The position numbers were made by a program, and so were the translations under genes. Below are positions 14,959-55,856 of a DNA stretch of 64,000 nt, piece by piece (position 1 is the first letter of the stretch; each line of letters starts with the position of its first letter). This DNA comes from Polycladidibacter hongkongensis (GTDB taxonomy: Bacteria; Pseudomonadota; Alphaproteobacteria; Rhizobiales; Stappiaceae). Location: contig NZ_LLWC01000036.1 of the NCBI RefSeq assembly GCF_001561995.1, positions 62,001 through 126,000 of the forward strand. The letters are read 5' to 3'. The notes under the pieces were generated by a model, which did not search any database, was not told where the DNA came from, and saw only the letters and a program-made list of their open reading frames with translations.

Positions 14959-15600
14959 CTAGTTTGGCACAGTGAAAGGGGTACGCCCAGAGCCGATGGC
15001 CCGCTCCAGCTGCCCGAGGCGATCTTGCCCCCAGAACAACTCACCCTGCCAGAGGTAGCTTGGCGCGCCAAACACCCCGCCGGCCATCGCAGCCTCAGTG
15101 TTCGCCTGATACTGCCGCTCAGCGGCTTCAGAAGATGCCTTGGCTATCACGACTTCTGCCTCTGCCCCAACTGTTTCAAGTAAATTGGCAAGGGTCTTGG
15201 GTTTTGCAAGATCCAATTCATTAACCCAGACACCTTGATAGGCATGTTGGCAGAACTGCGCGACAGGACCTGCCATTTCTTGCAGTACAATCGCGCATTT
15301 ATCGGCAAGCGCAATTTCTGTCGGGAAATGCTTAGGGCGCAACACGAGCGGAACGCCAAATTCCTCGCTTGCTCTTTGCAGTTCCAAAAACCGGTAGGAT
15401 TGCCGCTTGGGGTGGCGTTTTGGCAAGGGTTGCCCACCGCCGTTTACAACAACTTCCCCTAGTTTGCAGGGGCGAAAGTCGATGGAAACATCAAGCTTTG
15501 TGGCCATATCAACAAGACGTTGATGCCCAAAATAAGACCAAGGCGACATCAGGGTAAAATAGGTAATGATCTTAACCGGTTTCCCGTTGTTTTCTTCCAT
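14959..15600 (-). CDS. 2-hydroxychromene-2-carboxylate isomerase / DsbA-like thioredoxin-fold protein
   Basis: The 213-residue product resembles HCCA isomerase and kappa-class glutathione transferases. The N-terminal strand ITYFTLMSPWSYFGHQRL carries the Ser-Pro-Trp-Ser motif that replaces the DsbA CxxC. A helical insertion follows, and the C-terminal segment GGVFGAPSYLWQGELFWGQDRL has the conserved cis-Pro loop and FWGQDRL signature. Such enzymes act with glutathione on aromatic or electrophilic substrates. No aromatic pathway genes adjoin it, so the substrate is unknown. Confidence 0.85.
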   Translation of the reverse strand: MEENNGKPVKIITYFTLMSPWSYFGHQRLVDMATKLDVSIDFRPCKLGEVVVNGGGQPLPKRHPKRQSYRFLELQRASEEFGVPLVLRPKHFPTEIALADKCAIVLQEMAGPVAQFCQHAYQGVWVNELDLAKPKTLANLLETVGAEAEVVIAKASSEAAERQYQANTEAAMAGGVFGAPSYLWQGELFWGQDRLGQLERAIGSGRTPFTVPN

Positions 15601-15641: not shown

Positions 15642-17264
15642 TTATCCTAACTCATCCTGCAGCTTTTCCAAGGAAGAAAGCTGGTTGTTTTTGTTGTTTC
15701 CAGATGCGCAATCCAAATCAGCTTGAACATTAGGGAATATAATCTTTTCAACTTGGACAAAATGCAGATTTAGCTTGCATTTCCGCCGGGGTGCGGCACT
15801 TAGTTGCGCATATGTAAGACGTAATCGAACCGCCGTTTCCGGGTTCCGGGCCAGTTCCCGCAGCGGTCCATGGCGGGCGACACAGTGGGTTTTGACATGC
15901 TGGCGCAACGCCTCACACTCCTCGTTGGTCAGCTGCGCCTCCACTTTGGTCAGTGGCACCAAAGTCTGCTCCTCTTGCCACAGGCCCGCTACGAGTGTCA
16001 CAGGTGCGCGCAGCTGCCCCCCAGGTTGATAGAGGTGCATAAGCTGTGCCGTTATGTGGCGCCGCGGCGCTTTACGCTGCCCTAAACGCAGTTGTTCACC
16101 ATTAGAGGCGTCCACATCTGCAATAATGAAGTTCGCATAATTGGCGCTTGCCGGGCACTCGGCTGCGTCAACCCAATGCGGGGCGATCTGAGCAAGGCAC
16201 TGCCTTAACTGGCGAAGGACTTCGAGTGAAAGCCAGCCTTGCTTGTCTTGCCAGACATCTAACAAATAGATGCGCCATTGCTGCCTTGCATCTGTCTTTG
16301 TTGCATTTGCTCTGCGCAAGCTGGCCTGTAAGGCAGCTGGGGAGCTATGCTCTGGAAGTTTATGCGCAAGGCGCAGGATAAGCGTGCATGCCTTTGGCAT
16401 CTTTTCAAGCTTGGAAAGGCCTTCAGGAAGGATGTGCTGCGGCATTGAAAATTCTTCGCCGCGCATGGAAAAAAGCCGTGCCCCCTGCCCAGAGGCCGCG
16501 GCATGGACCGGGCCGCAAATCAGTAACTGCAAATCTATACCAACGGGAATGCGCAGGTTATCTGCGGCTGCCGGTGCTATAGCAGCTGCTTGCTTCGGCC
16601 ATTGCCATAGTCGAAAACAACTTGCAGAGGGGGCTTTTCGCGCATGTACGGGCTCATGCAACCACGTGACCAGCCCTAACATATCTATGTCTGGTTGGTG
16701 CCAAAGCGCGGCAATATCTCTTGGGATAGAATTGAAACTGCGTGCAAGAGCTTCCCAAAGCTCCCTTAGATCAACAGCAAATGGTCGCCGCGACGAAGGG
16801 GAAACTGTTGCAAGGCGCAATATGAAAAGGCGTTGGCGGGCGGGTATTTCTGTAAGGCTATCTAAGAGTTCTATTGCTGTTTGGCGCTGTGATAAAACTC
16901 CAAGCCATCTTCCAAGGCTTGCGTCACTTAATTTGTTTTTACCTATAGAGGCGCCGCCTGTGGTTATGGAAACAGGGAACCTCGTATTTTCGCCGCCAAG
17001 GGAAAATGCAATTGCCTCTAACCAATCGCTGGCCTGCGCATGCGCAAGTGCCAGCAGGTCTGCATCGACGAGCTGTAACGCGGCTTTTTTTAGGGCAGCG
17101 GCCGAGAGACGCAGCGCCGGTGTAAAACGGCCACCGAGCACAGCAAGGGCGGCGGCGAGCTCTTCCTGTTCCAAATCCTGCAGATAGTCACTGAGGTAAG
17201 CGCTGCGCTCGTGCGCATCACCACACGTGGCAAGAGCAGCACATAGCTCAAGAAAACGGTGCAA
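15642..17264 (-). CDS. Degenerate ATP-dependent DNA ligase homologue of the ligase-associated damage cluster
   Basis: The 540-residue product matches the cisplatin-damage-response ATP-dependent ligase family in length and end to end. The N-terminal helical domain (1-205) has MHRFLELCAALA, WHQPDIDMLGLVTWL and similar family phrases. The OB-like C-terminus (about 422-500) has LVPLTKVEAQLTNEECEAL, RHGPLREL and SAAPRRKCKLNLHF. The catalytic core is lost. Where the family has the adenylated Lys motif KWDGIR, this protein has I239-P-V-G-I-D244. Motif Ia is altered (RLFSMRGEE), and motifs III, IV and V (DGEL, EGLMLKR, WKWKRDP) are not recognisable. Translation starts at TTG 17264 behind AGGAGG with 8-base spacing. 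Neighbours are the exonuclease, helicase and PdeM genes of the same pathway. A structural, non-catalytic role is inferred. Confidence 0.78.
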   Translation of the reverse strand: MHRFLELCAALATCGDAHERSAYLSDYLQDLEQEELAAALAVLGGRFTPALRLSAAALKKAALQLVDADLLALAHAQASDWLEAIAFSLGGENTRFPVSITTGGASIGKNKLSDASLGRWLGVLSQRQTAIELLDSLTEIPARQRLFILRLATVSPSSRRPFAVDLRELWEALARSFNSIPRDIAALWHQPDIDMLGLVTWLHEPVHARKAPSASCFRLWQWPKQAAAIAPAAADNLRIPVGIDLQLLICGPVHAAASGQGARLFSMRGEEFSMPQHILPEGLSKLEKMPKACTLILRLAHKLPEHSSPAALQASLRRANATKTDARQQWRIYLLDVWQDKQGWLSLEVLRQLRQCLAQIAPHWVDAAECPASANYANFIIADVDASNGEQLRLGQRKAPRRHITAQLMHLYQPGGQLRAPVTLVAGLWQEEQTLVPLTKVEAQLTNEECEALRQHVKTHCVARHGPLRELARNPETAVRLRLTYAQLSAAPRRKCKLNLHFVQVEKIIFPNVQADLDCASGNNKNNQLSSLEKLQDELG

Positions 17265-17333
17265 GTGGCTTTCCTCCTGTCACCGTTTTATCCGCGCTTA
17301 CCGCAGCGCTCCTGCACTTTCAGCTATAAGGCG

Positions 17334-17726
17334 TTAGGACGGTTCATTTACGATGGACGCAATTTTCCAGTCCCGACCAATTCTGACCAGATTGTAGTGG
17401 CAGGTAAAGTCGAAAACAGGTTCGCCTTCTTCATCTTCCTGCTGCCAATCGAGGGTGATGGTTGCTGCAGTTGGCTGGACGTACAGATCCACTTCCTCAT
17501 AGATTGACTGGGCAATGTTATTATCTTCATAGACATCCAGAAGTGCCTGAATATTCTCGGTCATCTGGTCTTCATCTTCAAATATATGGCCCTTATCCGC
17601 CTGCCAAATAACACAGGGGAAGGTAAAACAGGAGAGAATCGCCGACAAGGAATAGTCGTCATAGCCATCGGCGTAGCGCTCGAAAAGCTCGGAAATGCCT
17701 TGTTCGTCCTTATGGAAATCACTCAT
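17334..17726 (-). CDS. NTF2/SnoaL-like protein
   Basis: The 130-residue product has the length and pattern of a SnoaL/NTF2-like cone fold: an N-terminal helix with LFERYADGYDDYSLSAILSCF, a central helix-strand unit, and C-terminal strands (ITLDWQQEDE, FTCHYNLVRIGRDWKIASI) ending in the usual RDGRWKI-type turn. It is acidic. Function is unknown. It lies between the ligase-like gene and the exonuclease gene on the same strand, an unusual insertion into that cluster, and may be transcribed with them. Confidence 0.72.
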   Translation of the reverse strand: MSDFHKDEQGISELFERYADGYDDYSLSAILSCFTFPCVIWQADKGHIFEDEDQMTENIQALLDVYEDNNIAQSIYEEVDLYVQPTAATITLDWQQEDEEGEPVFDFTCHYNLVRIGRDWKIASIVNEPS

Positions 17727-17903: not shown

Positions 17904-18920
17904 TTACATGGCCTCAGTGTCCAGACTTGGCAATTTGGTAAGGGGCGAGACGTTCAGCTGTCGCAACTGGCCCCAACGTTGCAGGGCGAAAGGATCTCCA
18001 TGGGTCACAAGGATTTCTTTTGCACCGCATTCCTCAATTGTCTGGCAAAGTTCAGGCCAGTCCGCATGGTCGGATATGGCCATGGGGATGTGCGAGGCGG
18101 TGTTTTTTGCCCGCTTCCCCGCCAACAGCCAGCCTGATGCAGAGGCAAGGCGCAGTTTTCTACCTGAGCTGCGCAAATCAGCCGCCTGTTTGCTTTGTGG
18201 CGGGCAAAGGGCAAGCACTGGGTGCTCGTGCACCGGGGCTTGGGCTAGCGGACGCAGCTGCCCCAGATGCACACCAAAACTTGTGTAGATTTGCGCAATA
18301 GCTAACGTTGCGGTGTCCAGATAAATCGGCCGGGTGATGCCGCGCGCACGCAGCAGGGCAATCATCCGCTGGCTTTTGCCCAGGGAGTAGGCTTCGATAA
18401 GATGATGCGCCTGAGGGAACAAACGCAGCGACTTTATGAGCCTGTCTAGCTCCTGCTGTTCGCCGGGCATCTGATACAAGGGATTGGCAAAGGTTGCCTC
18501 GGTTACAAATGTATCGCAGCGTACCAGCTCGAAAGGGGCGGTCGTCGGATCTGCTCGGCGTTTAAAATCACCTGAAATCACCGTGCGGTGCGTCGCGGAT
18601 TGCAAGAGAACTTGCGCAGAGCCAAGCACGTGCCCGGCGCTGTGCAGGCTCATGCTGATGCTGCCAAGATCGCAGCTGCGCCCCAGTGCCAACGGGTGCC
18701 TTTCACCTGCGAAGTTTTTACCCAAGCGCACTTGCATAATCGCCAGTGTCTCTGGCGTTGCCCACACCTGCCCGTGGCCCGCGCGTGCATGATCGGCGTG
18801 GGCATGGGTGACAATCGCACGGGCGACCTTGCGCACGGGATCGATATGCACATCCGCCTGCGGACAATAAAGACCGGCAGCGGTGTTCACCAACAGGTTC
18901 TGCGGTAAAGCCTTGGACAT
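17904..18920 (-). CDS. Ligase-associated DNA exonuclease (metallo-beta-lactamase fold)
   Basis: The 338-residue protein has the MBL/beta-CASP features of the ligase-associated exonuclease family. The N-terminal phrase AAGLYCPQADVHIDP leads to the metal motif HAHADH (about 39-44). GHVLGSAQVLL, SGDFKRRADPTTAPFE and the C-terminal SDHADWPEL and VTHGDP motifs follow. All metal-binding positions look intact. It would process DNA ends together with the Lhr-type helicase, PdeM and a ligase. It is divergent from the helicase gene across 147 bases, and the NTF2-like and ligase-like genes lie downstream of it. Confidence 0.88.
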   Translation of the reverse strand: MSKALPQNLLVNTAAGLYCPQADVHIDPVRKVARAIVTHAHADHARAGHGQVWATPETLAIMQVRLGKNFAGERHPLALGRSCDLGSISMSLHSAGHVLGSAQVLLQSATHRTVISGDFKRRADPTTAPFELVRCDTFVTEATFANPLYQMPGEQQELDRLIKSLRLFPQAHHLIEAYSLGKSQRMIALLRARGITRPIYLDTATLAIAQIYTSFGVHLGQLRPLAQAPVHEHPVLALCPPQSKQAADLRSSGRKLRLASASGWLLAGKRAKNTASHIPMAISDHADWPELCQTIEECGAKEILVTHGDPFALQRWGQLRQLNVSPLTKLPSLDTEAM

Positions 18921-19067: not shown

Positions 19068-21608
19068 TTGCTAGAGCGCCCTCCCCTTTTGCCTGAGCAG
19101 CAGCCCAAAGACCTGCCAGCGGTGTTTGAGCGATGGTTTGCCGCGCGGGGCTGGCAAGCGCGGCCGCATCAGCTCCGCTTGCTTGGTGCGGTCCAGCGCG
19201 GTGCGCATGCACTGTTGATCGCGCCAACGGGCGCGGGCAAGACTTTGGCCGGTTTCCTGCCCAGTCTTGTGGAGCTGAGCACGCAAAGCAAGGACGAGGC
19301 TGCCGCGCGGCGTGGCCCGCACACGCTTTACATATCGCCGCTTAAAGCGCTGACCACCGATATCGCGCGCAATCTAGAGATGCCGATTGCGCAGATGGAG
19401 CTACCGATACGGGTGGAGACCCGCACAGGCGATACCCCGGTGAGCAAACGCCAGCGCCAGAAGCTGCGCCCGCCCGACATTCTCCTCACCACCCCGGAGC
19501 AAATTTCTCTGCTGCTCAGCGACAAAGCGAGCCACCGCATTTTCTCGCAGCTGCGCTATGTGGTTCTGGACGAGTTGCACGAGCTGGTTACTTCCAAGCG
19601 CGGGGACCTGCTGGCATTGGCGTTGGCACGGCTGCAGCGGCTGGCGCCAGAGAGCCGACGGATCGGGCTATCGGCAACGGTGGCGGATGTTACGGGTCTG
19701 CGCGCCTATTTGCAGCCGCAAGCAGCGCTTGACGCAGATAGCCCGCCCAAGCTTGCAGCACTCGTGGAGGCAGAGGTAGGCGCGCCGCCACACGTGGACA
19801 TCTTGCGCAGTGCCGCTTGGATCCCGTTTGCCGGGCACTCCTGCCGATATGCCTATGATGATGTGTACGGGCTGCTTAAACAGCATCGCATGTCGCTGGT
19901 GTTCGTCAATACGCGCTCGCAGGCGGAGATGGTGTTCCAATCTCTGTGGCAAATGAACGAGGACAACCTGCCCATCGCCCTACATCACGGTTCGCTGGAT
20001 GTGGGGCAGCGGCGCAAGGTCGAGGCTGCCATGGCGGCGGGGAAACTCAAGGCAGTGGTGTGCACCTCCTCGCTCGATCTGGGGCTCGACTGGGGGGATA
20101 TTGATCTGGTTATCCAGATGGGCGCGCCCAAAGGCGCAAGCCGTATGGCGCAGCGTATTGGCCGCGCCAACCACAGGATGGATACACCCTCCAAGGCCGT
20201 GATTGTTCCTTCCAACCGGCTGGAAGTTCTTGAGTGCGAAGCCGCGGTGGAGGCCCTGCGCGCAGGCGCACAAGACAGCGCGGGACCGCGGCAGGGCGGG
20301 CTGGATGTTTTGGCGCAACACGTGATGGGACTGGCTTGCAGCGGGCCACTTGATATGCGCGCGTTGCACAGGGAGATCACCGAGGCCTACAGTTATCGCT
20401 TTGTCAGCAAAGACTTGCTGCAACGTACATTGGATTTTGTGGCCACGGGTGGTTACGCCTTGAAAGCCTATGAGCGCTTTGCCAAGCTACGACAGGACAA
20501 AAACGGCCATTATTCACTGCGACACCCCAAACTGGCGCAGCAGTACCGCCTTAACAGTGGCACGATTGTCGAGGCTCCGGTCCTTACACTGCGGCTGGTG
20601 GGCTCTTCAGCCCGGCGTGGCAAGCGGCCATTGGGACGGGGGGGACGGGTGCTTGGCAGTATTGAAGAAGGTTTTCTTGAGAAGCTGACACAGGGAGATA
20701 GTTTTCTATTTGGCGGCGAGATCCTCGCTTTTGAGGGCATTCGCGAGAATGAAGCCTATGCATCGCGCTCTAAAGCCGATGCGCCGAAAATCCCTGCGTA
20801 TCAGGGGGGCAAGTTTCCCTTGTCCAGCTATTTGGCAGCGCGTGTGCGCAAGATCGTGGCTCAACCGGACGCATGGGCGGCTCTACCTGAACAGGTGCGT
20901 GATTGGTTGCAGTTGCAGCAGGAAAAATCGCAGTTGCCCACGGCGACAGGGTTGCTGGTGGAGACGTTTGCCCGCGGGGGTAACCATTTTCTGGTGCTTT
21001 ATCCGTTTGAAGGGCGCATGGCACACCAGACACTTGGCATGCTGCTGACACGGCGACTGGAGCGTTGGGGATTACAACCACTTGGTTTTGTTGCCACTGA
21101 ATATTCGCTGGCGATTTGGGCAAGGCAAGACATGGGAGCGGCCATTCAAGCTGGAGAACTGGCGCTTGCCAACTTACTGGAGCCTGATCTGCTGGGTGAT
21201 GATCTGGATGCATGGTTGGCGGAAAGCGGTTTGATGAAGCGCACCTTTCGCAATTGTGCCGTGGTTTCTGGCCTGATTGAGCGGCGCTTCCCCGGCGCGC
21301 ACAAAAGCGGGCGACAAGTGACCATGTCTGCTGATCTCATCTATGATGTGCTGCGCTCGCACGAGCCAGAGCATCTATTGCTGGAGGCCACGTGGCAAGA
21401 TGCGGCACGCGGGCTGCTTGACATTCGGCGGCTGGGTGATTTTCTGCAGCGCATCCAAGGTAATATCACGCATCAGCATTTGCCCAGAGTGTCGCCGTTG
21501 GCGGTGCCACTCATCCTTGAAATTGGCAAGGAGCCCGTTTATGGCAGTGCTGAAGAGGCCCTGTTGCAAGACGAGGCGGCCATGCTCTATCAGGAGGCTT
21601 CGCTATAA
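19068..21608 (+). CDS. Ligase-associated DNA damage response DEXH-box helicase (Lhr family)
   Basis: The 846-residue superfamily 2 helicase has Walker A APTGAGKT at 52-59, DELH at 168-171, a SATVAD motif III, the C-terminal RecA domain with RIGRANHR arginine fingers, and the Lhr winged-helix and DUF4145-like C-terminal region (FEGRMAHQTLGMLL, ERRFPGAHKSGRQVTMSADLIYDVLR). It should translocate 3' to 5' on DNA and unwind damaged or hybrid duplexes. The frame opens at TTG 19068; SD support is weak, and TTG 19089 is an alternative. It is followed by pdeM after 50 bases. The motifs look functional, unlike those of the nearby ligase homologue. Confidence 0.9.
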   Translation: MLERPPLLPEQQPKDLPAVFERWFAARGWQARPHQLRLLGAVQRGAHALLIAPTGAGKTLAGFLPSLVELSTQSKDEAAARRGPHTLYISPLKALTTDIARNLEMPIAQMELPIRVETRTGDTPVSKRQRQKLRPPDILLTTPEQISLLLSDKASHRIFSQLRYVVLDELHELVTSKRGDLLALALARLQRLAPESRRIGLSATVADVTGLRAYLQPQAALDADSPPKLAALVEAEVGAPPHVDILRSAAWIPFAGHSCRYAYDDVYGLLKQHRMSLVFVNTRSQAEMVFQSLWQMNEDNLPIALHHGSLDVGQRRKVEAAMAAGKLKAVVCTSSLDLGLDWGDIDLVIQMGAPKGASRMAQRIGRANHRMDTPSKAVIVPSNRLEVLECEAAVEALRAGAQDSAGPRQGGLDVLAQHVMGLACSGPLDMRALHREITEAYSYRFVSKDLLQRTLDFVATGGYALKAYERFAKLRQDKNGHYSLRHPKLAQQYRLNSGTIVEAPVLTLRLVGSSARRGKRPLGRGGRVLGSIEEGFLEKLTQGDSFLFGGEILAFEGIRENEAYASRSKADAPKIPAYQGGKFPLSSYLAARVRKIVAQPDAWAALPEQVRDWLQLQQEKSQLPTATGLLVETFARGGNHFLVLYPFEGRMAHQTLGMLLTRRLERWGLQPLGFVATEYSLAIWARQDMGAAIQAGELALANLLEPDLLGDDLDAWLAESGLMKRTFRNCAVVSGLIERRFPGAHKSGRQVTMSADLIYDVLRSHEPEHLLLEATWQDAARGLLDIRRLGDFLQRIQGNITHQHLPRVSPLAVPLILEIGKEPVYGSAEEALLQDEAAMLYQEASL

Positions 21609-21658: not shown

Positions 21659-22381
21659 ATGTTTGGTGAGACCGAGTTATCACTGCTCTATGAAGGCGCC
21701 TTGTGGCTGCCTGCTGCTCGTGTGTTGGTGGTGAGTGACTTGCATCTGGGCAAGGCGGCCGCTTTTGCCCAAGCCGGGGTGATGCTGCCGCCTTACGACA
21801 GCCATGCCACGCTGCAACGGCTGGCTGATGTGGTGCAGCGGCTACAGCCTGTGCAAGTTGTGTGCCTTGGGGACAGCTTTCACAGGCCTGACAGTGCGCC
21901 ACAGTTGCCTCAAGCAGCCAAAGAACAGCTGAAACTGATGCAACAAGGGCGAGACTGGGTCTGGATACTTGGCAATCACGATGCGCAGATCGGTGGGGGC
22001 ATGGACAGACGGCAACTCCATGAGCTGGCCATTGGTGCCTTACAACTGCGGCACGAGCCAACCGCGATCTCTCAAGGCGACACACTGCAAATCTGCGGTC
22101 ACTACCACCCAGCGGCGAAAATTCGCCGTATGGGGCGTTCGGTACGGCGGCGGTGTTTTGCCTATAGTGACCAACTGCTGGTTTTACCGGCGTTTGGTGC
22201 GTTCACTGGTGGGCTCAACCTCCTCGATGAGGCGTTTACCAGCGTGTTCACAACGCAAACACGCTTAAAAGGTGTGGTGATGCTGGGGCAGGAACAGCTC
22301 TACAACGTCCACCCGCGAGCGCTCGTGCAAGACGGGGCCCGTATTGCGTCACGGCGCTTTAGATCTCCAACTTCGGCTTAA
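21659..22381 (+). CDS. pdeM: Ligase-associated DNA damage response endonuclease PdeM
   Basis: The 240-residue metallophosphoesterase has the ordered calcineurin-like motifs VVSDLHLGK (about 25-32), GDSFH, GNHD and GHYHP, which bind two metals. The family phrase MLPPYDSHATLQRLADVV follows the first motif. PdeM family members are nucleases found with the Lhr helicase, MBL exonuclease and ATP-dependent ligase. It lies 50 bases after the helicase gene on the same strand, so the pair is probably one operon. It converges with the TIGR02186 gene, with only 12 bases between the two. Confidence 0.9.
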   Translation: MFGETELSLLYEGALWLPAARVLVVSDLHLGKAAAFAQAGVMLPPYDSHATLQRLADVVQRLQPVQVVCLGDSFHRPDSAPQLPQAAKEQLKLMQQGRDWVWILGNHDAQIGGGMDRRQLHELAIGALQLRHEPTAISQGDTLQICGHYHPAAKIRRMGRSVRRRCFAYSDQLLVLPAFGAFTGGLNLLDEAFTSVFTTQTRLKGVVMLGQEQLYNVHPRALVQDGARIASRRFRSPTSA

Positions 22382-24407: not shown

Positions 24408-27400
24408 TTAGGAGAGCTGGGCAACCCATGTGCGCGGTAGCTGCGGGACATTGGCCGACTCGTTTGCGCTGTTGCGCTGGAAGGACGAGGTCTGCCGTTT
24501 CGCATTGGACAACTGCTGCGCGGTGAGCAATTTCGCAATCTCGGCGCGCTTGGCCTGAGCTTCTTGGTCGCCTGCCGCTCCGGCAAGGGCAAACCACTTA
24601 TAGGAAGCAACCAGATCCTGCACCTTGCCAAGGCCGCGGGCATAGAGCATCGCCAGATTAAACTGACTGTCTTTGTTTCCCGCTTCCGCTGCTAGCTGGA
24701 ACCAATAGGCAGCCCTATCAAAATCCGGCTCTCCCTTGGTGCCACTGGCATACATGACCGCAAGGTTGTGCATGGCTTTGATATTGCCCTGCTTGGCAGA
24801 TGCGGAATACCAGAATTCAGCAGCCTCAATATCCCGCACTAGCCCCAAGCCACGCTCATAGGAGCTGGCGAGGCGATATTGCGCGACGGCCAAGCCGCCT
24901 TCAGCTGCATAGCTGTACCACGTGGCAGCGGCGCTATCATCTTTTGGCAGATTAGTGCCGCTTGAATACCACAGACCAATCTGGAATTGGGCAAGCGGGT
25001 CCTTGCTCTCCAAAGCAGCCGAGAGATCAGCCCCTTTGGCGGATTGCGGTAACGCTGCGACCAGCTGCTTGTAGGTCTCCTGCTGCGGGTTTACCTCTGC
25101 TTTAGCGACAGCAAAATGGGCTTGTCTATTTGCTGCCGCTTGCGCAAAGGCCGTCGTTCCCTGTAAGGATGGCCGCTGCAAAGCAGGTGTGACTGATTGC
25201 CAATTACCAGCGAGCAGCTCTGCGGGAAAAATACCCGTGGCAGCACCAAATTGCTTCTCTTCTGGCAATGCAGATTGCGGGGTGTCCATGGCCCTTGGCG
25301 ACAGGGTATTGCCAAGGGTCGCGCTGACATCCGTATCGCTTCCAAAAACGCCGAAGACCTGCATGGTTCCCATAGCAATGAGGAGCGCGGCAGTTGTCAA
25401 CAAAACTGCTTTACGCCGGCCAAATTTGGTTGGCTTAGTGTCGTCCCCCTCATCCTCATCGGCCGCCTCTGAGGGGGCTGCCTCATCTTTGCGCCTCAAG
25501 AAACCGTCGGGTATGGCAATGTGTTCAGGGGTTGGCTCTTCTTTGCGTTTTAGGTAGTCGGAAAGGCGGCGCGCACGTCGTTTTTTCTGGCCGTCTTCCT
25601 CTTCCTCTTCATGTTCTGGCAATTCGCGTTCGCGGCTGGCCGCAACTTCTGCAGCAGCAGCTTGGGCAGCGCGACGCGCGGCGGCAATGTACTCCGCCTT
25701 GCGATCCGCTTCGGCTCTGGCCTCTGCCGCGCTTTGTTCATCCAGACGCGGGCTGGCTGCCCCCATCTCGACAAGCGCATTGGTTTCTTCAATTGCGAAA
25801 CCTGCGACATCGCCCGTTGCCCCAAGGGCTTTAAGATCTGCTGCGGTGTCCAGAGCGGCGGCTTGCGACATATCCGGCGTTTGTTGATCCAACACCGGAT
25901 CAATAGCGGCGCGCTCTTCGTCTGTGTGCTCTTGGTCCGCCGCGTAAGTGGATGCGGTTGGTTCTTGCAGTTGTTGCTCTGATGCTTGGTGCTCTAGCGC
26001 TTGCGATTGCTCTTCTTGAGGCTGCTCGTAGAGCGGCCCTGTTTGGTCTTCAGCCGATAGTGCCGTTGTATGTGTGCTCGGCGTCTCGACAAATGAGGCC
26101 ATTTGCTGCAATGCCGCCTCACCCGGCTCCAGAGCGGCTTGCTGTTCCTGAGGTGCGGCTGATTGTGTTTCTTCTTCGCTCTCGCCTGCCTTGTGCTTTG
26201 TTAACGCGGCAATGATGTTGCGGACTTGGCTGTCGCCAACAAACTTCTCATGCTCCTGCCCGATTTGGCCAAGGTCAGCAAGGTCCGGAGCGCCAGCATG
26301 GGATGCATCAGCTGCTTCGGCTGCTTCCAGTTCATCCAGATGCGTGACAATACGTTGTAGCATTGCCTCCATGTTATCGAGCTGGTGGGGCTCTTCGCTG
26401 TCGCTTTGCGCCATCAGCTTCAGCGCTTGCATATCAGCTTGTAGTCCCCCAAGGGCGCTGTCGACAACCTGTATTGCAGCTGTTGCCTGAACGCTCTTTT
26501 CCGAAGCCGCGGCGCTCTGAACACCCAGTAATTCTATATTGGCGTTGCCGGCTTCCACCATGTCGGCAAGAGCACGAACCTGCATCTCGATCCGCTCCAG
26601 CGCGCCATCTTCTTCAAAGCCTCGCGGATTTGCGAGAGCCGCAACCACATTGTCGATCTGGCCCTGCAGCTCTTGCGTGGTTGGCAGTTGATCAATCTTG
26701 GCAGAAACCCGCTGCAACTCGGCTGATATTTTGAGCAGCAACTCCGGCTCTACCTGATTAGACAGCGCCGCGATGTTGGTTTGTTCCAGCCGGTCCAGCT
26801 TGCCTGCAAGCTGTTGGAGTAGCTCGACTTGCATCTCGTCCTTTGCCGAAACACCGGCCAGCTTTGCCTCCATTTGCTCCAGATGCTGAGTGAACTGGTC
26901 CAAACGGCTTTCAAGGGCAGCAAAGTCATCGCGGTGGCTAGATACCGACGCCGGTGTCCGCTCTATACGGTTTAGCTGATCACGAATGCCGTTTAGATCT
27001 TGCAGCAAACGGGCCTCGGCGCGTTGCACTGCCTCATAGGATCCATCGCGCTCTTCCAAATGGTTGGAGAGCGTAGACATGTGCGAGCAGATACGCTCCA
27101 GCGTCCCTTCGGCAGGCAGCTGTTGTTCTACCCGTACAAGCCGGGTTTGTATGTCACGCTGCATGGCTGTAAAGTGCTCCAGCTCGTCCATGCGTTGTGT
27201 CAGGAAGCGTAGGCGCTTGTCGATTTCTCCCAGTAGCGGCTCTGGGTTCATGCCGGTGATAGTTTTTTCTAGCTGCTGCACGTCGTTGTGCAGGTGCTCA
27301 AGTGCTTGGGTGTCCGCACGTGCGGCGACATATTCCAGCCGCTCTTGCAGATGCTGGAGGCGGCTTTCCATTGCTATGAGTTGCCCTGCCTGTGGCAACT

Positions 27401-28199
27401 CGGAGACAAGCAGGCTCAACTCGTCCAATCGCTTTTCAAGTAGCTCTTGGATTGCTGGGTCGACGCGTTCGCGCGCTATTACCTCCAGGCGCTGAGTGGT
27501 TGCATCATATTCATCTTTGAGCTGCTCCACGCTTTGCGCTGTGTGGGCGGGTTCAAGCTGCTCGCGCAGGTCTTGCAGTTTACCACGAAGCTTGCCAGCT
27601 TTGACCCTGCCCTGCTTGTTCTTTTCCAAGCGGGCGATCAGTGTATCCAGCTCCTGCAAAGGGTCTGACCCTTGTTCCCGCGTTGTGTGAGCTGCATCAG
27701 GCTTCAAGCTTGGCTGGCGAATTTCTTCGGAAATCGAGGAGTAGCGGCGCGGCACCGGGTAGGCCTCATGCTGCTCGGGCAATTGGCTGTACAAGCGCTG
27801 ATTGCGCGGCGTTTCTGCGCGGCGCTTCGCCATAGGATCAAATGTAGTTTTTGCCTCACTCTGCACCCCGTGGTGCTGTGTATCAGAGTACGGGTGTGCA
27901 GGCGCGTAAGCGGTCGCACTGTGTTGCTGCGCTGGTGCGGGATTGTCCAGCAGGCTTTCCAAAGCGCTTGCGATTTCGTCCAGCTGTGATGATGTGGATG
28001 CCCGCGTTCCTGCCAAACTGTCCCGCGCTGGCGCAGATCGCTGGCGCAGCGCACTAAGTAGGCTGTTCACCTGCGGGTCGGAGGTGGCAAAGGCCTCATC
28101 AAGGGCAGGCGCGCGCGTATCTGTCTGATCGCCAAGGCGCAAAGCTTCCAAGAGAAGCTCTTTGGTGCTGCGCTGCTGCCTGTTTGATCTGCTGGTCAT
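24408..28199 (-). CDS. PodJ-like polarity/scaffold protein with coiled coils and SEL1 repeats
   Basis: The 1263-residue product has a cytoplasmic N-terminal part of about 900 residues. It holds a disordered Pro/Ser-rich section (about 80-170), long amphipathic coiled coils (about 175-660) and an acidic Gln/Glu/Ala-rich section, then a basic patch and one membrane span at about 924-946 (AVLLTTAALLIAMGTMQVFG). The periplasmic C-terminus carries about four SEL1-type repeats (about 1053-1235; YSSGTNLPKDDSAAATWYSYAAEGG, LAMLYARGLGKVQDLVASYKW). This order matches PodJ of Caulobacter and polar organisers of Hyphomicrobiales, but the C-terminal peptidoglycan-binding domain of Caulobacter PodJ is missing. 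It stands alone, with its own terminator. Confidence 0.75.
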   Translation of the reverse strand: MTSRSNRQQRSTKELLLEALRLGDQTDTRAPALDEAFATSDPQVNSLLSALRQRSAPARDSLAGTRASTSSQLDEIASALESLLDNPAPAQQHSATAYAPAHPYSDTQHHGVQSEAKTTFDPMAKRRAETPRNQRLYSQLPEQHEAYPVPRRYSSISEEIRQPSLKPDAAHTTREQGSDPLQELDTLIARLEKNKQGRVKAGKLRGKLQDLREQLEPAHTAQSVEQLKDEYDATTQRLEVIARERVDPAIQELLEKRLDELSLLVSELPQAGQLIAMESRLQHLQERLEYVAARADTQALEHLHNDVQQLEKTITGMNPEPLLGEIDKRLRFLTQRMDELEHFTAMQRDIQTRLVRVEQQLPAEGTLERICSHMSTLSNHLEERDGSYEAVQRAEARLLQDLNGIRDQLNRIERTPASVSSHRDDFAALESRLDQFTQHLEQMEAKLAGVSAKDEMQVELLQQLAGKLDRLEQTNIAALSNQVEPELLLKISAELQRVSAKIDQLPTTQELQGQIDNVVAALANPRGFEEDGALERIEMQVRALADMVEAGNANIELLGVQSAAASEKSVQATAAIQVVDSALGGLQADMQALKLMAQSDSEEPHQLDNMEAMLQRIVTHLDELEAAEAADASHAGAPDLADLGQIGQEHEKFVGDSQVRNIIAALTKHKAGESEEETQSAAPQEQQAALEPGEAALQQMASFVETPSTHTTALSAEDQTGPLYEQPQEEQSQALEHQASEQQLQEPTASTYAADQEHTDEERAAIDPVLDQQTPDMSQAAALDTAADLKALGATGDVAGFAIEETNALVEMGAASPRLDEQSAAEARAEADRKAEYIAAARRAAQAAAAEVAASRERELPEHEEEEEDGQKKRRARRLSDYLKRKEEPTPEHIAIPDGFLRRKDEAAPSEAADEDEGDDTKPTKFGRRKAVLLTTAALLIAMGTMQVFGVFGSDTDVSATLGNTLSPRAMDTPQSALPEEKQFGAATGIFPAELLAGNWQSVTPALQRPSLQGTTAFAQAAANRQAHFAVAKAEVNPQQETYKQLVAALPQSAKGADLSAALESKDPLAQFQIGLWYSSGTNLPKDDSAAATWYSYAAEGGLAVAQYRLASSYERGLGLVRDIEAAEFWYSASAKQGNIKAMHNLAVMYASGTKGEPDFDRAAYWFQLAAEAGNKDSQFNLAMLYARGLGKVQDLVASYKWFALAGAAGDQEAQAKRAEIAKLLTAQQLSNAKRQTSSFQRNSANESANVPQLPRTWVAQLS

Positions 28200-53619: not shown

Positions 53620-53792
53620 TTATTTAAATATCTCAAAGGATGAAACATCGCACATAAAACAAAGGCTTCCTTATTATTATTAATATAGACTAATTTTGAT
53701 GTTGAATTTTAATTAGAGGATTGAAATAGTCTTCCCACCCCCATTTTGATGAGCGTGATTCATTTATTTTGATCATGCAGGAAGACAAAACT

Positions 53793-55856
53793 ATGACTAC
53801 CTTACTTAGAGTTCTTAAAGGGCTCCACCTGTCGCATTTATTAGGCGTCGTAATTCTTATCCCTTTAGGCTTGTCGGTGTTGTTTTCTAGTCAGCAGATA
53901 CTAGAAAGCCGCAGCATCGCTCAAAACTCAGAGCAACTTGCAGAGATTACCGAGATAGCGATCCGCATCAGCGAGGCTGTGCACGAGCAACAAAAAGAAC
54001 GCGGCGCCTCGGCAGGTTATCTTGCCAGTAAGGGCGAAGCCTTTGCACAAACGCTGGCGAAACAGAAGCAGGCGACCGACACCGCCCATGCGCGACTGCT
54101 AGAAACCGCCGCTAGTTCACACTTTGAAGAACTCCCGGCAGACTATCGCAGGGCCTTTGAGCAGGTACGGCGAGAATTGGCAAAGCTTGACAGCATCCGT
54201 AGCGCTGTTGAAGAGCAAACCATAAGCGCAAGCAAAGCCGTTGCGTTTTACACTGGATTAAACGGGGATATGCTGGGTTTGATCCAAGATTCAGCGACCG
54301 CGTCCTCTTCTGCCGAAGTGACCCGCCTTTACACCGCCTATACGGCTTTCTTGCAGGGGAAGGAACGCGGCGGGATTGAGAGGGCCGTTGGCGCCAGCAT
54401 TCTTGGCGCAGCCACCCCTGAGGCGGCAGACCTTCGCAAATTCAACCAGATGATAGATGAGCAGAATACCTATTTTGAGGTGTTTCGCGCCTTTGCCAAT
54501 GAAGACAAGGTTGAGCGACTGAATGCGCTGCTCAACGAACCGATCAGTCGGCAAGTTCGTGACATGCGCGAGCAAATTATCGCCATAGACGGTTCCTCAG
54601 CTGCACGGCTTGCTGCAGAGGACTGGTTCAGCACAATCTCAAAGAAACTAAACTTGCTCAAAGGCTTTGAAAGCGAGCTTAGTCAGGCCCTTCATGACTC
54701 GCTTGCCGAATTGAAAACGGCTGCCGAAGATCATCTATACTTGGTCATTCTTGAGGCCGGTCTGGGCATCGGATTTGTCGTTGTGCTCATGACGTTGTTA
54801 CTTATGAGCAGCAACAGCGCAGTAAACAAGCTGGTTCGTTCCATGAGTGCCGTTGCGGAAGGGGATGTAGAAGCCGATATCCCAGAGATCGCATACGTCG
54901 AATTAAACCGCATGCGCGATGCACTGGCGGTGTTTAGGCACAATGCAATTGAAAACCGCGAACTACAAAAGAAGAACGAACAGCAAAAAGCCGAAGCGGA
55001 AGCGGAAAAACGCGAGATGCTCAACCAGCTGGCCACAGATTTCCAACAGCAGGTTGGGCATATTGTGCAAAGTGTTAGCGCGGCGGCTGAGCAGCTGGAA
55101 TCCAGCGCCAACACCATGTCTGGTGTGGCTGAAGAGACCAGTGCGCAGGCTGTTGGTGCGGCAGGTGCGGCTGAACAGGCCTCCACCAGTGTGAACACAG
55201 TGGCCGGAGCGAGTGAAGAGCTTTCTGCCACCATTCAAGAAGTGGCTGAACAGATCAATCAAAGCTCGCAAGTGAGCCAAGCTGCCAATGATGACGCTAA
55301 AAAATCCATGGCCCAAGTGCAGCAACTGCGTACTGCAACTGAGCGGATTAGCGAAGTAGTCGAGCTTATCAACGATATTGCCGAACAGACCAATTTGCTG
55401 GCTCTGAACGCGACAATCGAAGCGGCACGCGCTGGCGAGGCGGGGCGCGGCTTTGCTGTGGTTGCCAGCGAAGTCAAAGGCCTTGCGGGCCAGACCAGCA
55501 ATGCTACTCAGGATATTGCCAAGTACATCAGCGAGATGCAACAGGTATCCCAGCTGAGTGTTGAGGCGATCGAGGGTATTAGCAAGCAGGTGTTTACAAT
55601 CTCTGACAATATCACCGCAATCTCAGCGGCCGCAGAGCAACAAGGCGCGGCAACCCAAGAGATTTCGCAGAACGCGCAGCAAGCGGCCTTGGGCACGCAG
55701 GAAGTATCCAGCATTGTAACCGAGGTACAGGGTGCAGCCAGCGAAAGCGGGCGGGTTGCGGAGCAAACCTTGCAGGCGGCCTCTGTGCTGTCCTCGCAGG
55801 CGCAACAGCTCAACAGTGCTGTGGACGCTTTTGTGGCGCAGGTTCGCGCAGGCTAA
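53793..55856 (+). CDS. Methyl-accepting chemotaxis protein with NIT (nitrate/nitrite-sensing) domain
   Basis: The 687-residue receptor has an N-terminal membrane helix (about 10-30) and a NIT-type helical sensor (about 40-310; [18 protein letters not shown] and [16 protein letters not shown] are the core motifs). A second membrane helix (about 320-342) and a HAMP region (about 345-395) follow, then a long MCP signalling coiled coil with the hairpin tip [35 protein letters not shown]-type sequence (about 530-560). NIT sensors bind nitrate or nitrite. ATG 53793 is behind AGGAAG. Ligand is inferred from the domain. Confidence 0.9.

Follow-up and report, generated by a model that had tools for sequence, protein, structure and literature searches.

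The gene cluster around a ligase homologue

The window, a stretch of 64,000 nucleotides, belongs to the 3.74 Mb genome of a marine bacterium of the genus Pseudovibrio, with P. exalbescens and P. flavus as its closest named relatives. Counts given below for Pseudovibrio refer to 16 genomes of the genus, in which the four dead ligases are the window protein and its three orthologues. A gene that starts at a TTG codon (17264–17262, reverse strand) encodes a homologue of LigB, the cisplatin damage response ligase of NCBIfam TIGR04120, and lies in a cluster with a ligase-associated exonuclease, an Lhr-Core type DEXH helicase and PdeM (Table 1). The exonuclease retains the motifs HAHADH, TEATF, SDHAD and THG, the helicase APTGAGKT, DELHEL and SAT, and PdeM, as read from its translation, SDLHLGK, GNHD and GHYH. 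A preliminary description of this DNA had proposed a dead ligase kept in an otherwise intact damage-response cluster, in an uninterrupted frame with an AGGAGG site before a TTG start, and our read-out agrees with it on each of these points; the NTF2-like gene between the exonuclease and the ligase had been missed.

Table 1 Features of the ligase locus in the window
Feature	Coordinates	Strand	Basis
DsbA-family protein, synteny marker downstream of the ligase	14959..15600	−	PF01323, E 2.4e-31
Catalytically dead LigB/TIGR04120 homologue	15642..17264	−	540 aa; TIGR04120 match, hhalign to intact LigB, motifs I and III–VI lost
OB-fold part, residues 401–510, motif VI lost	15735..16064	−	TIGR04120 427–507; strands 402–509, pLDDT about 60–81
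Former nucleotidyltransferase region, residues 206–400	16065..16649	−	16% mean identity among four Pseudovibrio proteins; pLDDT <50
Codon ATT for Ile239, where the motif I lysine stood	16548..16550	−	Alignment of IPVGID with KWDGIR; sequence
N-terminal helical DNA-binding-domain homologue, residues 1–205	16650..17264	−	TIGR04120 stretch 3–216; helical in both models
AGGAGG ribosome-binding site	17273..17278	−	Sequence; 8 nt upstream of the dead ligase TTG
NTF2-like protein, 130 aa, between exonuclease and ligase	17334..17726	−	DUF6841/DUF4440, both below cut-off
Ligase-associated exonuclease (TIGR04122), motifs intact	17904..18920	−	341.5 bits, cut-off 325
Ligase-associated DEXH helicase (TIGR04121, Lhr-Core type)	19068..21608	+	1071 bits, cut-off 850; helicase motifs
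PdeM (TIGR04123)	21659..22381	+	216.5 bits, cut-off 150

The dead ligase occupies the same place in three more Pseudovibrio genomes, all of which also have the NTF2-like gene there. All six loci from other genera of the family display the order exonuclease, NTF2-like gene and ligase, the latter with an intact KWDGIR, and the helicase and PdeM lie on the other side wherever the fetched stretch of these intact loci reaches that far. A DsbA-family gene adjoins the ligase at the remaining three dead loci of Pseudovibrio and at five of the six intact family loci. To judge from this shared gene order, the LigB locus is old and has been inherited in place. The strand opposite the dead ligase carries a 305-residue open frame (window 16270–17187, forward strand), which is probably a by-product of codon usage.

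A LigB protein with an erased active site

The window protein matches the TIGR04120 profile with an E value of 7.4e-16 and a score of 58.2 bits, below the curated cut-off of 400 bits, in two stretches of which the best comprises residues 3–216. A six-frame search matched profile positions 2–199 and 427–507 and left the nucleotidyltransferase part between them unmatched, and a Pfam search of the window protein returned no family at E ≤ 1. Alignment of a profile of the four Pseudovibrio proteins to five intact ligases with hhalign gave a probability of 100% and an E value of 1.4e-41. Because the profiles align over 491 columns at this E value, the homology of the window protein to LigB is genuine and extends over its length, which bears out its earlier assignment to the cisplatin-response ligases. 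It shares with LigB the N-terminal DNA-binding-domain homology, the C-terminal OB fold, the order of domains and, at the locus occupied by intact LigB elsewhere in the family, the exonuclease, Lhr-Core helicase and PdeM as neighbors. Unlike catalytic LigB, it falls short of the score cut-off (58 vs 400 bits) and lacks the KxDG lysine of motif I as well as motifs III, IV, V and VI.

The motifs were read from an alignment of 73 genes (11 dead, 62 intact), the aligned blocks of which we take to be ligase motifs I, Ia and III–VI. In the window protein, motif I reads IPVGID, with Ile239 replacing the lysine of the intact KWDGIR, and motif Ia reads SMRGEE. Motif III is ILR (DGE in intact proteins), motif IV is EQLRLG (EGxMxK), motif V is a gap (KWK) and motif VI is IFPNV (RxDK). 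The substitution at residue 239, an altered motif Ia and unrecognizable motifs III–V had been described previously, and motif VI can now be added to the losses. Given this sequence, the LigB-type ligase of the window is predicted to be no longer capable of adenylation or sealing. Furthermore, the only lysines invariant across the four Pseudovibrio proteins, K440 and K495, belong to the OB part, leaving the former catalytic domain with no conserved substitute for the nucleophile. A PF01068 search found no ATP-ligase catalytic domain in the window genome or in any of the 16 genus genomes, while control genomes did match, and the search for an intact paralogue in the window genome was thus negative for this domain.

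The middle region still comprises about 200 residues in Pseudovibrio with all motifs gone and few invariant positions, among them W222, I229, P240, E271, L316 and L334. This persistence might be taken to mean that the former nucleotidyltransferase domain is not simply inert but has acquired a novel chemistry or ligand. However, the mean identity of the region among the four proteins is 16%, lower than that of the flanking domains and unlike what a new active site would display, and the residue states differ between lineages, making such a gain improbable.

AlphaFold models of the window protein computed from 4 and 7 sequences had a mean pLDDT of 49.2 and 51.7, respectively, with residues 207–400 below 50, and both contained a helical N-terminal domain and OB strands. 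Foldseek ranked DNA ligases first for both models (3rr5, E values of 6.9e-4 and 1.1e-6, the alignment behind the second model having contained intact ligases). With the middle domain at this level of pLDDT and a TM score of about 0.2, the structure fails as proof of a retained catalytic fold.

Dead LigB genes recur in Alphaproteobacteria

We surveyed TIGR04120 matches in the order (397 genomes, 257 with a match, 240 over the cut-off), the class (387, 137 and 107, respectively) and the phylum (397, 183 and 139, respectively), and sought dead genes by reading low-scoring full-length genes and a sample of the high scorers. Two of the 17 order genomes below the cut-off are Pseudovibrio, and the other 15 were re-inspected together with three low scorers. 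In 13 of the re-inspected order genomes, the match does not begin until about profile position 184, so that the N-terminal part is absent. One further genome (G300) contains a fragment at a contig end in addition to matches of this kind, and another (G421, family f44) encodes a LigB that is full length and dead.

In total, we found 11 dead LigB genes in seven families: the four of Pseudovibrio, and seven from six other alphaproteobacterial families. Together with that of G421, the latter are those of G138 (QWDG at motif I, family f39), G803 and G743 (QWSG and QWPG, both family f116), G469 (KLAG, locus L101, family f84), G493 (family f108) and G696 (LWTG, family f191). Some catalytic traces persist, namely DGE in G138 and G493 and EGIILK in G696. 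The KxK of motif V and the RxDK of motif VI are absent from all 11 dead genes and present in all 62 intact controls, which comprise 16 loci that were chosen by motif I and are not independent, six family loci and 40 class-table loci picked by score. The 16 derive from a first motif reading of 30 loci, which gave 19 with WKWDGIR (16 of which were used later) and four without the motif, with seven left out. Two remnant loci (L104 and L105) were left out of the 73-gene alignment.

A PF01068 search over the 11 dead-ligase genomes matched in six, each time in the dead gene itself and over the cut-off in five, and none of the 11 (of which G421 is 87% complete) contains another PF01068 domain. These five genes, and the motif I lysine retained by one of the 11 (L101), are what could be cited for the window protein still being a ligase with a displaced nucleophile, but motifs V and VI are lost throughout and the four Pseudovibrio proteins share no invariant lysine within the former catalytic domain, which leaves this idea barely credible.

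In the class draw, at least 6 of the 112 LigB genes are dead. No further low-scoring full-length LigB was present among the phylum matches listed, so that all known cases are from Alphaproteobacteria. One scan for viral relatives of the dead family found none. The preliminary description had stated that no non-catalytic member of this system was described. This stands for bacterial LigB in the open papers searched, but such members do exist, in at least seven families. Dead LigB is a real, recurrent and non-catalytic variant of a known repair enzyme, unreported in those papers.

Two genomes of one genus carry LigB remnants (G464:C10:289003-289239 and G653:C1:1858966-1859130) within frames of 201 and 137 residues that encode the C-terminal end only; these show what real LigB decay looks like. 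At G402:C36:13531-15137, LigB is split over two frames (profile positions 1–213 and 211–526), owing to either a frameshift or an assembly error.

Independent inactivations

A tree of the cluster helicases (26 rows, 8 of them from dead loci) requires at least four inactivations, four being forced by well-supported branches, on the assumption that the ligase and the helicase were inherited together. Eight loci (L128 and seven others) were left out of this tree, and the fetched stretches of L097, L101 and L103 contain no helicase. The helicase beside the dead f44 gene is the sister of that from an intact f44 genome (100/100). Families f1, f44 and f116 also hold LigB genes whose motifs, when read, were intact, and f39 also has a gene (in G098) that exceeds the TIGR04120 cut-off, as judged by score only.

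The exonuclease tree likewise gave four state changes, both in a quick run with 53 rows and in a careful run with 45, from which eight fast-evolving or distant rows had been removed. In the careful run, none of the 200 bootstrap replicates placed the dead loci in one clade, and the AU test did not reject such a clade (p 0.20). A single dead clade is nevertheless rejected by the helicase tree (AU p 3.2e-54).

Exonuclease branches are long in the dead lineages (L098, L044–L046 and the window gene) and exceed those of intact ones. The branch of G421 measures 1.3 in the exonuclease and 0.38 in the helicase, compared to 0.54 and 0.26 in its intact relative G103. It is as if the exonuclease were adapting to a dead partner, or had itself become less constrained.

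Selection on the dead genes

The second of these possibilities belongs to a wider alternative, according to which selection has weakened on the whole exonuclease–ligase arm. The dead ligases would then be its slow casualties, losing catalysis first and being deleted later together with the exonuclease, as in most Pseudovibrio. Apart from the long exonuclease branches and the true remnants in G464 and G653, several properties of the Pseudovibrio locus are consistent with this explanation. Exonuclease and ligase are both present in 4 of the 16 genomes and both absent from the remaining 12. Of 11 genes of the locus, the ligase evolves fastest and ranks last in conservation in all six Pseudovibrio genome pairs, with a pairwise identity of 28–40% compared to 46–64% for the exonuclease and 64–81% for the helicase, which also counts against a role as partner of the exonuclease. 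Finally, the GC3 of the window ligase is 0.51 vs 0.63 for the exonuclease and 0.66 for the helicase.

Against weakened selection stands the rate of protein change. In the dead pair G803/G743 (L099/L100), dS is 0.51 and dN is 0.17, giving an ω of 0.33 (bootstrap 95% confidence interval 0.26–0.42), which lies beside values of 0.25 for the exonuclease and 0.18 for the helicase of the same genomes. Purifying selection thus acts on this one dead pair, which belongs to another family than the window; in the Pseudovibrio ligases, synonymous change is saturated. The frames, moreover, are uninterrupted in all 11 dead genes, although neutral drift breaks frames quickly: in simulations of three Pseudovibrio genes at 0.25 changes per site, 0, 2 and 0 of 2000 runs ended with an intact frame. 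The gene has also been retained by each of four deeply diverged Pseudovibrio lineages. The strong ribosome-binding site is retained in the window and, in six of the seven dead loci outside Pseudovibrio, the exonuclease stop and the ligase start still share 1 or 4 nt. Taken together, these data support the earlier view that the gene is not decaying like a pseudogene, and we regard weakened selection as the less likely explanation.

The co-loss in Pseudovibrio spared the NTF2-like gene in the middle, which is still in place in all 10 fetched loci without exonuclease and ligase. In the helicase tree, all nine usable loss genomes form one clade (100/100), and because of this the co-loss counts as one event, which tells against the exonuclease-partner reading. 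G006 was left out of this tree. A cluster helicase is missing from G001 and G011, which also have no helicase over the TIGR04121 cut-off and may have lost the cluster altogether.

The dead genes have kept, on average, 0.62 of the columns conserved among intact proteins in the N-terminal part, 0.48 in the nucleotidyltransferase part and 0.38 in the OB part. That the OB columns are kept least counts against an easy version of the exonuclease-partner reading. Within the OB part, G480, P481 and R507 (L108 numbering) are nevertheless retained in all 11 dead genes, and R483 and K509 in 10 of them.

A proposed partnership with the exonuclease

All 11 dead ligases adjoin the exonuclease gene, in Pseudovibrio at a distance of one small gene, and the exonucleases beside them all retain HxHxDH, EATF, SDH and THG. 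Among the 387 genomes of the class draw, the exonuclease exceeds the TIGR04122 cut-off in 113. A LigB, whether intact or dead, occurs in 112 genomes, each of which is among these 113; all six dead-ligase genomes of this draw have the exonuclease. The joint presence or absence of the two genes in the 16 Pseudovibrio genomes likewise speaks for a partnership. The two genomes with LigB remnants only (G464 and G653) have no exonuclease match. Of the 113, only G535 (G535:C71:7330-8289) has the exonuclease and no LigB over the levels used.

PMC10140301 describes the operon of LigB, Lhr-Core, exonuclease and PdeM as widespread, with its biological role and target damage stated as not known, and, citing Ejaz and Shuman 2018, mentions exonuclease–ligase fusions in Opitutus terrae and Dry Valley metagenomes. 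The fusions resemble the dead loci in tying the exonuclease to the same ligase family, and support a direct partnership; they differ in that the dead loci encode separate proteins and that the ligase is dead. A second parallel is provided by human and mouse DNA ligase IV. According to PMC9638927 and PMC11754673, engineered inactive Lig4 promotes repair by end joining and aids Lig3, so that repair can profit from an inactive ligase while a second one does the sealing. The inactive ligase IV is a point mutant, whereas dead LigB is natural, bacterial and recurrent, and its whole active site is erased.

Recurrent loss of catalysis beside the same nuclease gene suggests that the LigB protein still does a structural job. 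On balance, and with modest confidence, we favor the reading that dead LigB is a putative non-catalytic DNA-binding partner of the exonuclease in the LigB/exonuclease/Lhr-Core/PdeM module, in which ligase chemistry is dispensable. The N-terminal and OB parts would continue to bind DNA at ends or nicks, and the LigB body may hold, position or regulate the exonuclease at the DNA, much as the repair complex of human Lig4 is held by the inactive enzyme. Sealing would then be optional, or the nick would be closed by a different ligase, for which the NAD-dependent LigA is the simplest candidate. More tentatively, we propose as a possibility that the primary role of LigB is that of an obligate, non-catalytic partner to the exonuclease of the cluster, with a ligase chemistry that is optional and has repeatedly been lost in Alphaproteobacteria.

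If ligation has indeed been lost repeatedly while ligase and exonuclease stayed together, the search for the function of this system shifts from sealing to the guidance of the exonuclease. The dead LigBs would form a natural, recurring class of pseudoenzymes in DNA repair that reveals the real job of a widespread pathway; they also offer a direct bacterial parallel to inactive Lig4 that can be tested.

Two further genes of the window lie apart from this cluster. One (24408–28199, reverse strand) encodes a 1263-residue protein with Sel1 repeats near its C-terminus, and the other (53769–55856, forward strand) a chemoreceptor that combines a nitrate/nitrite-sensing NIT domain with an MCP signaling domain.
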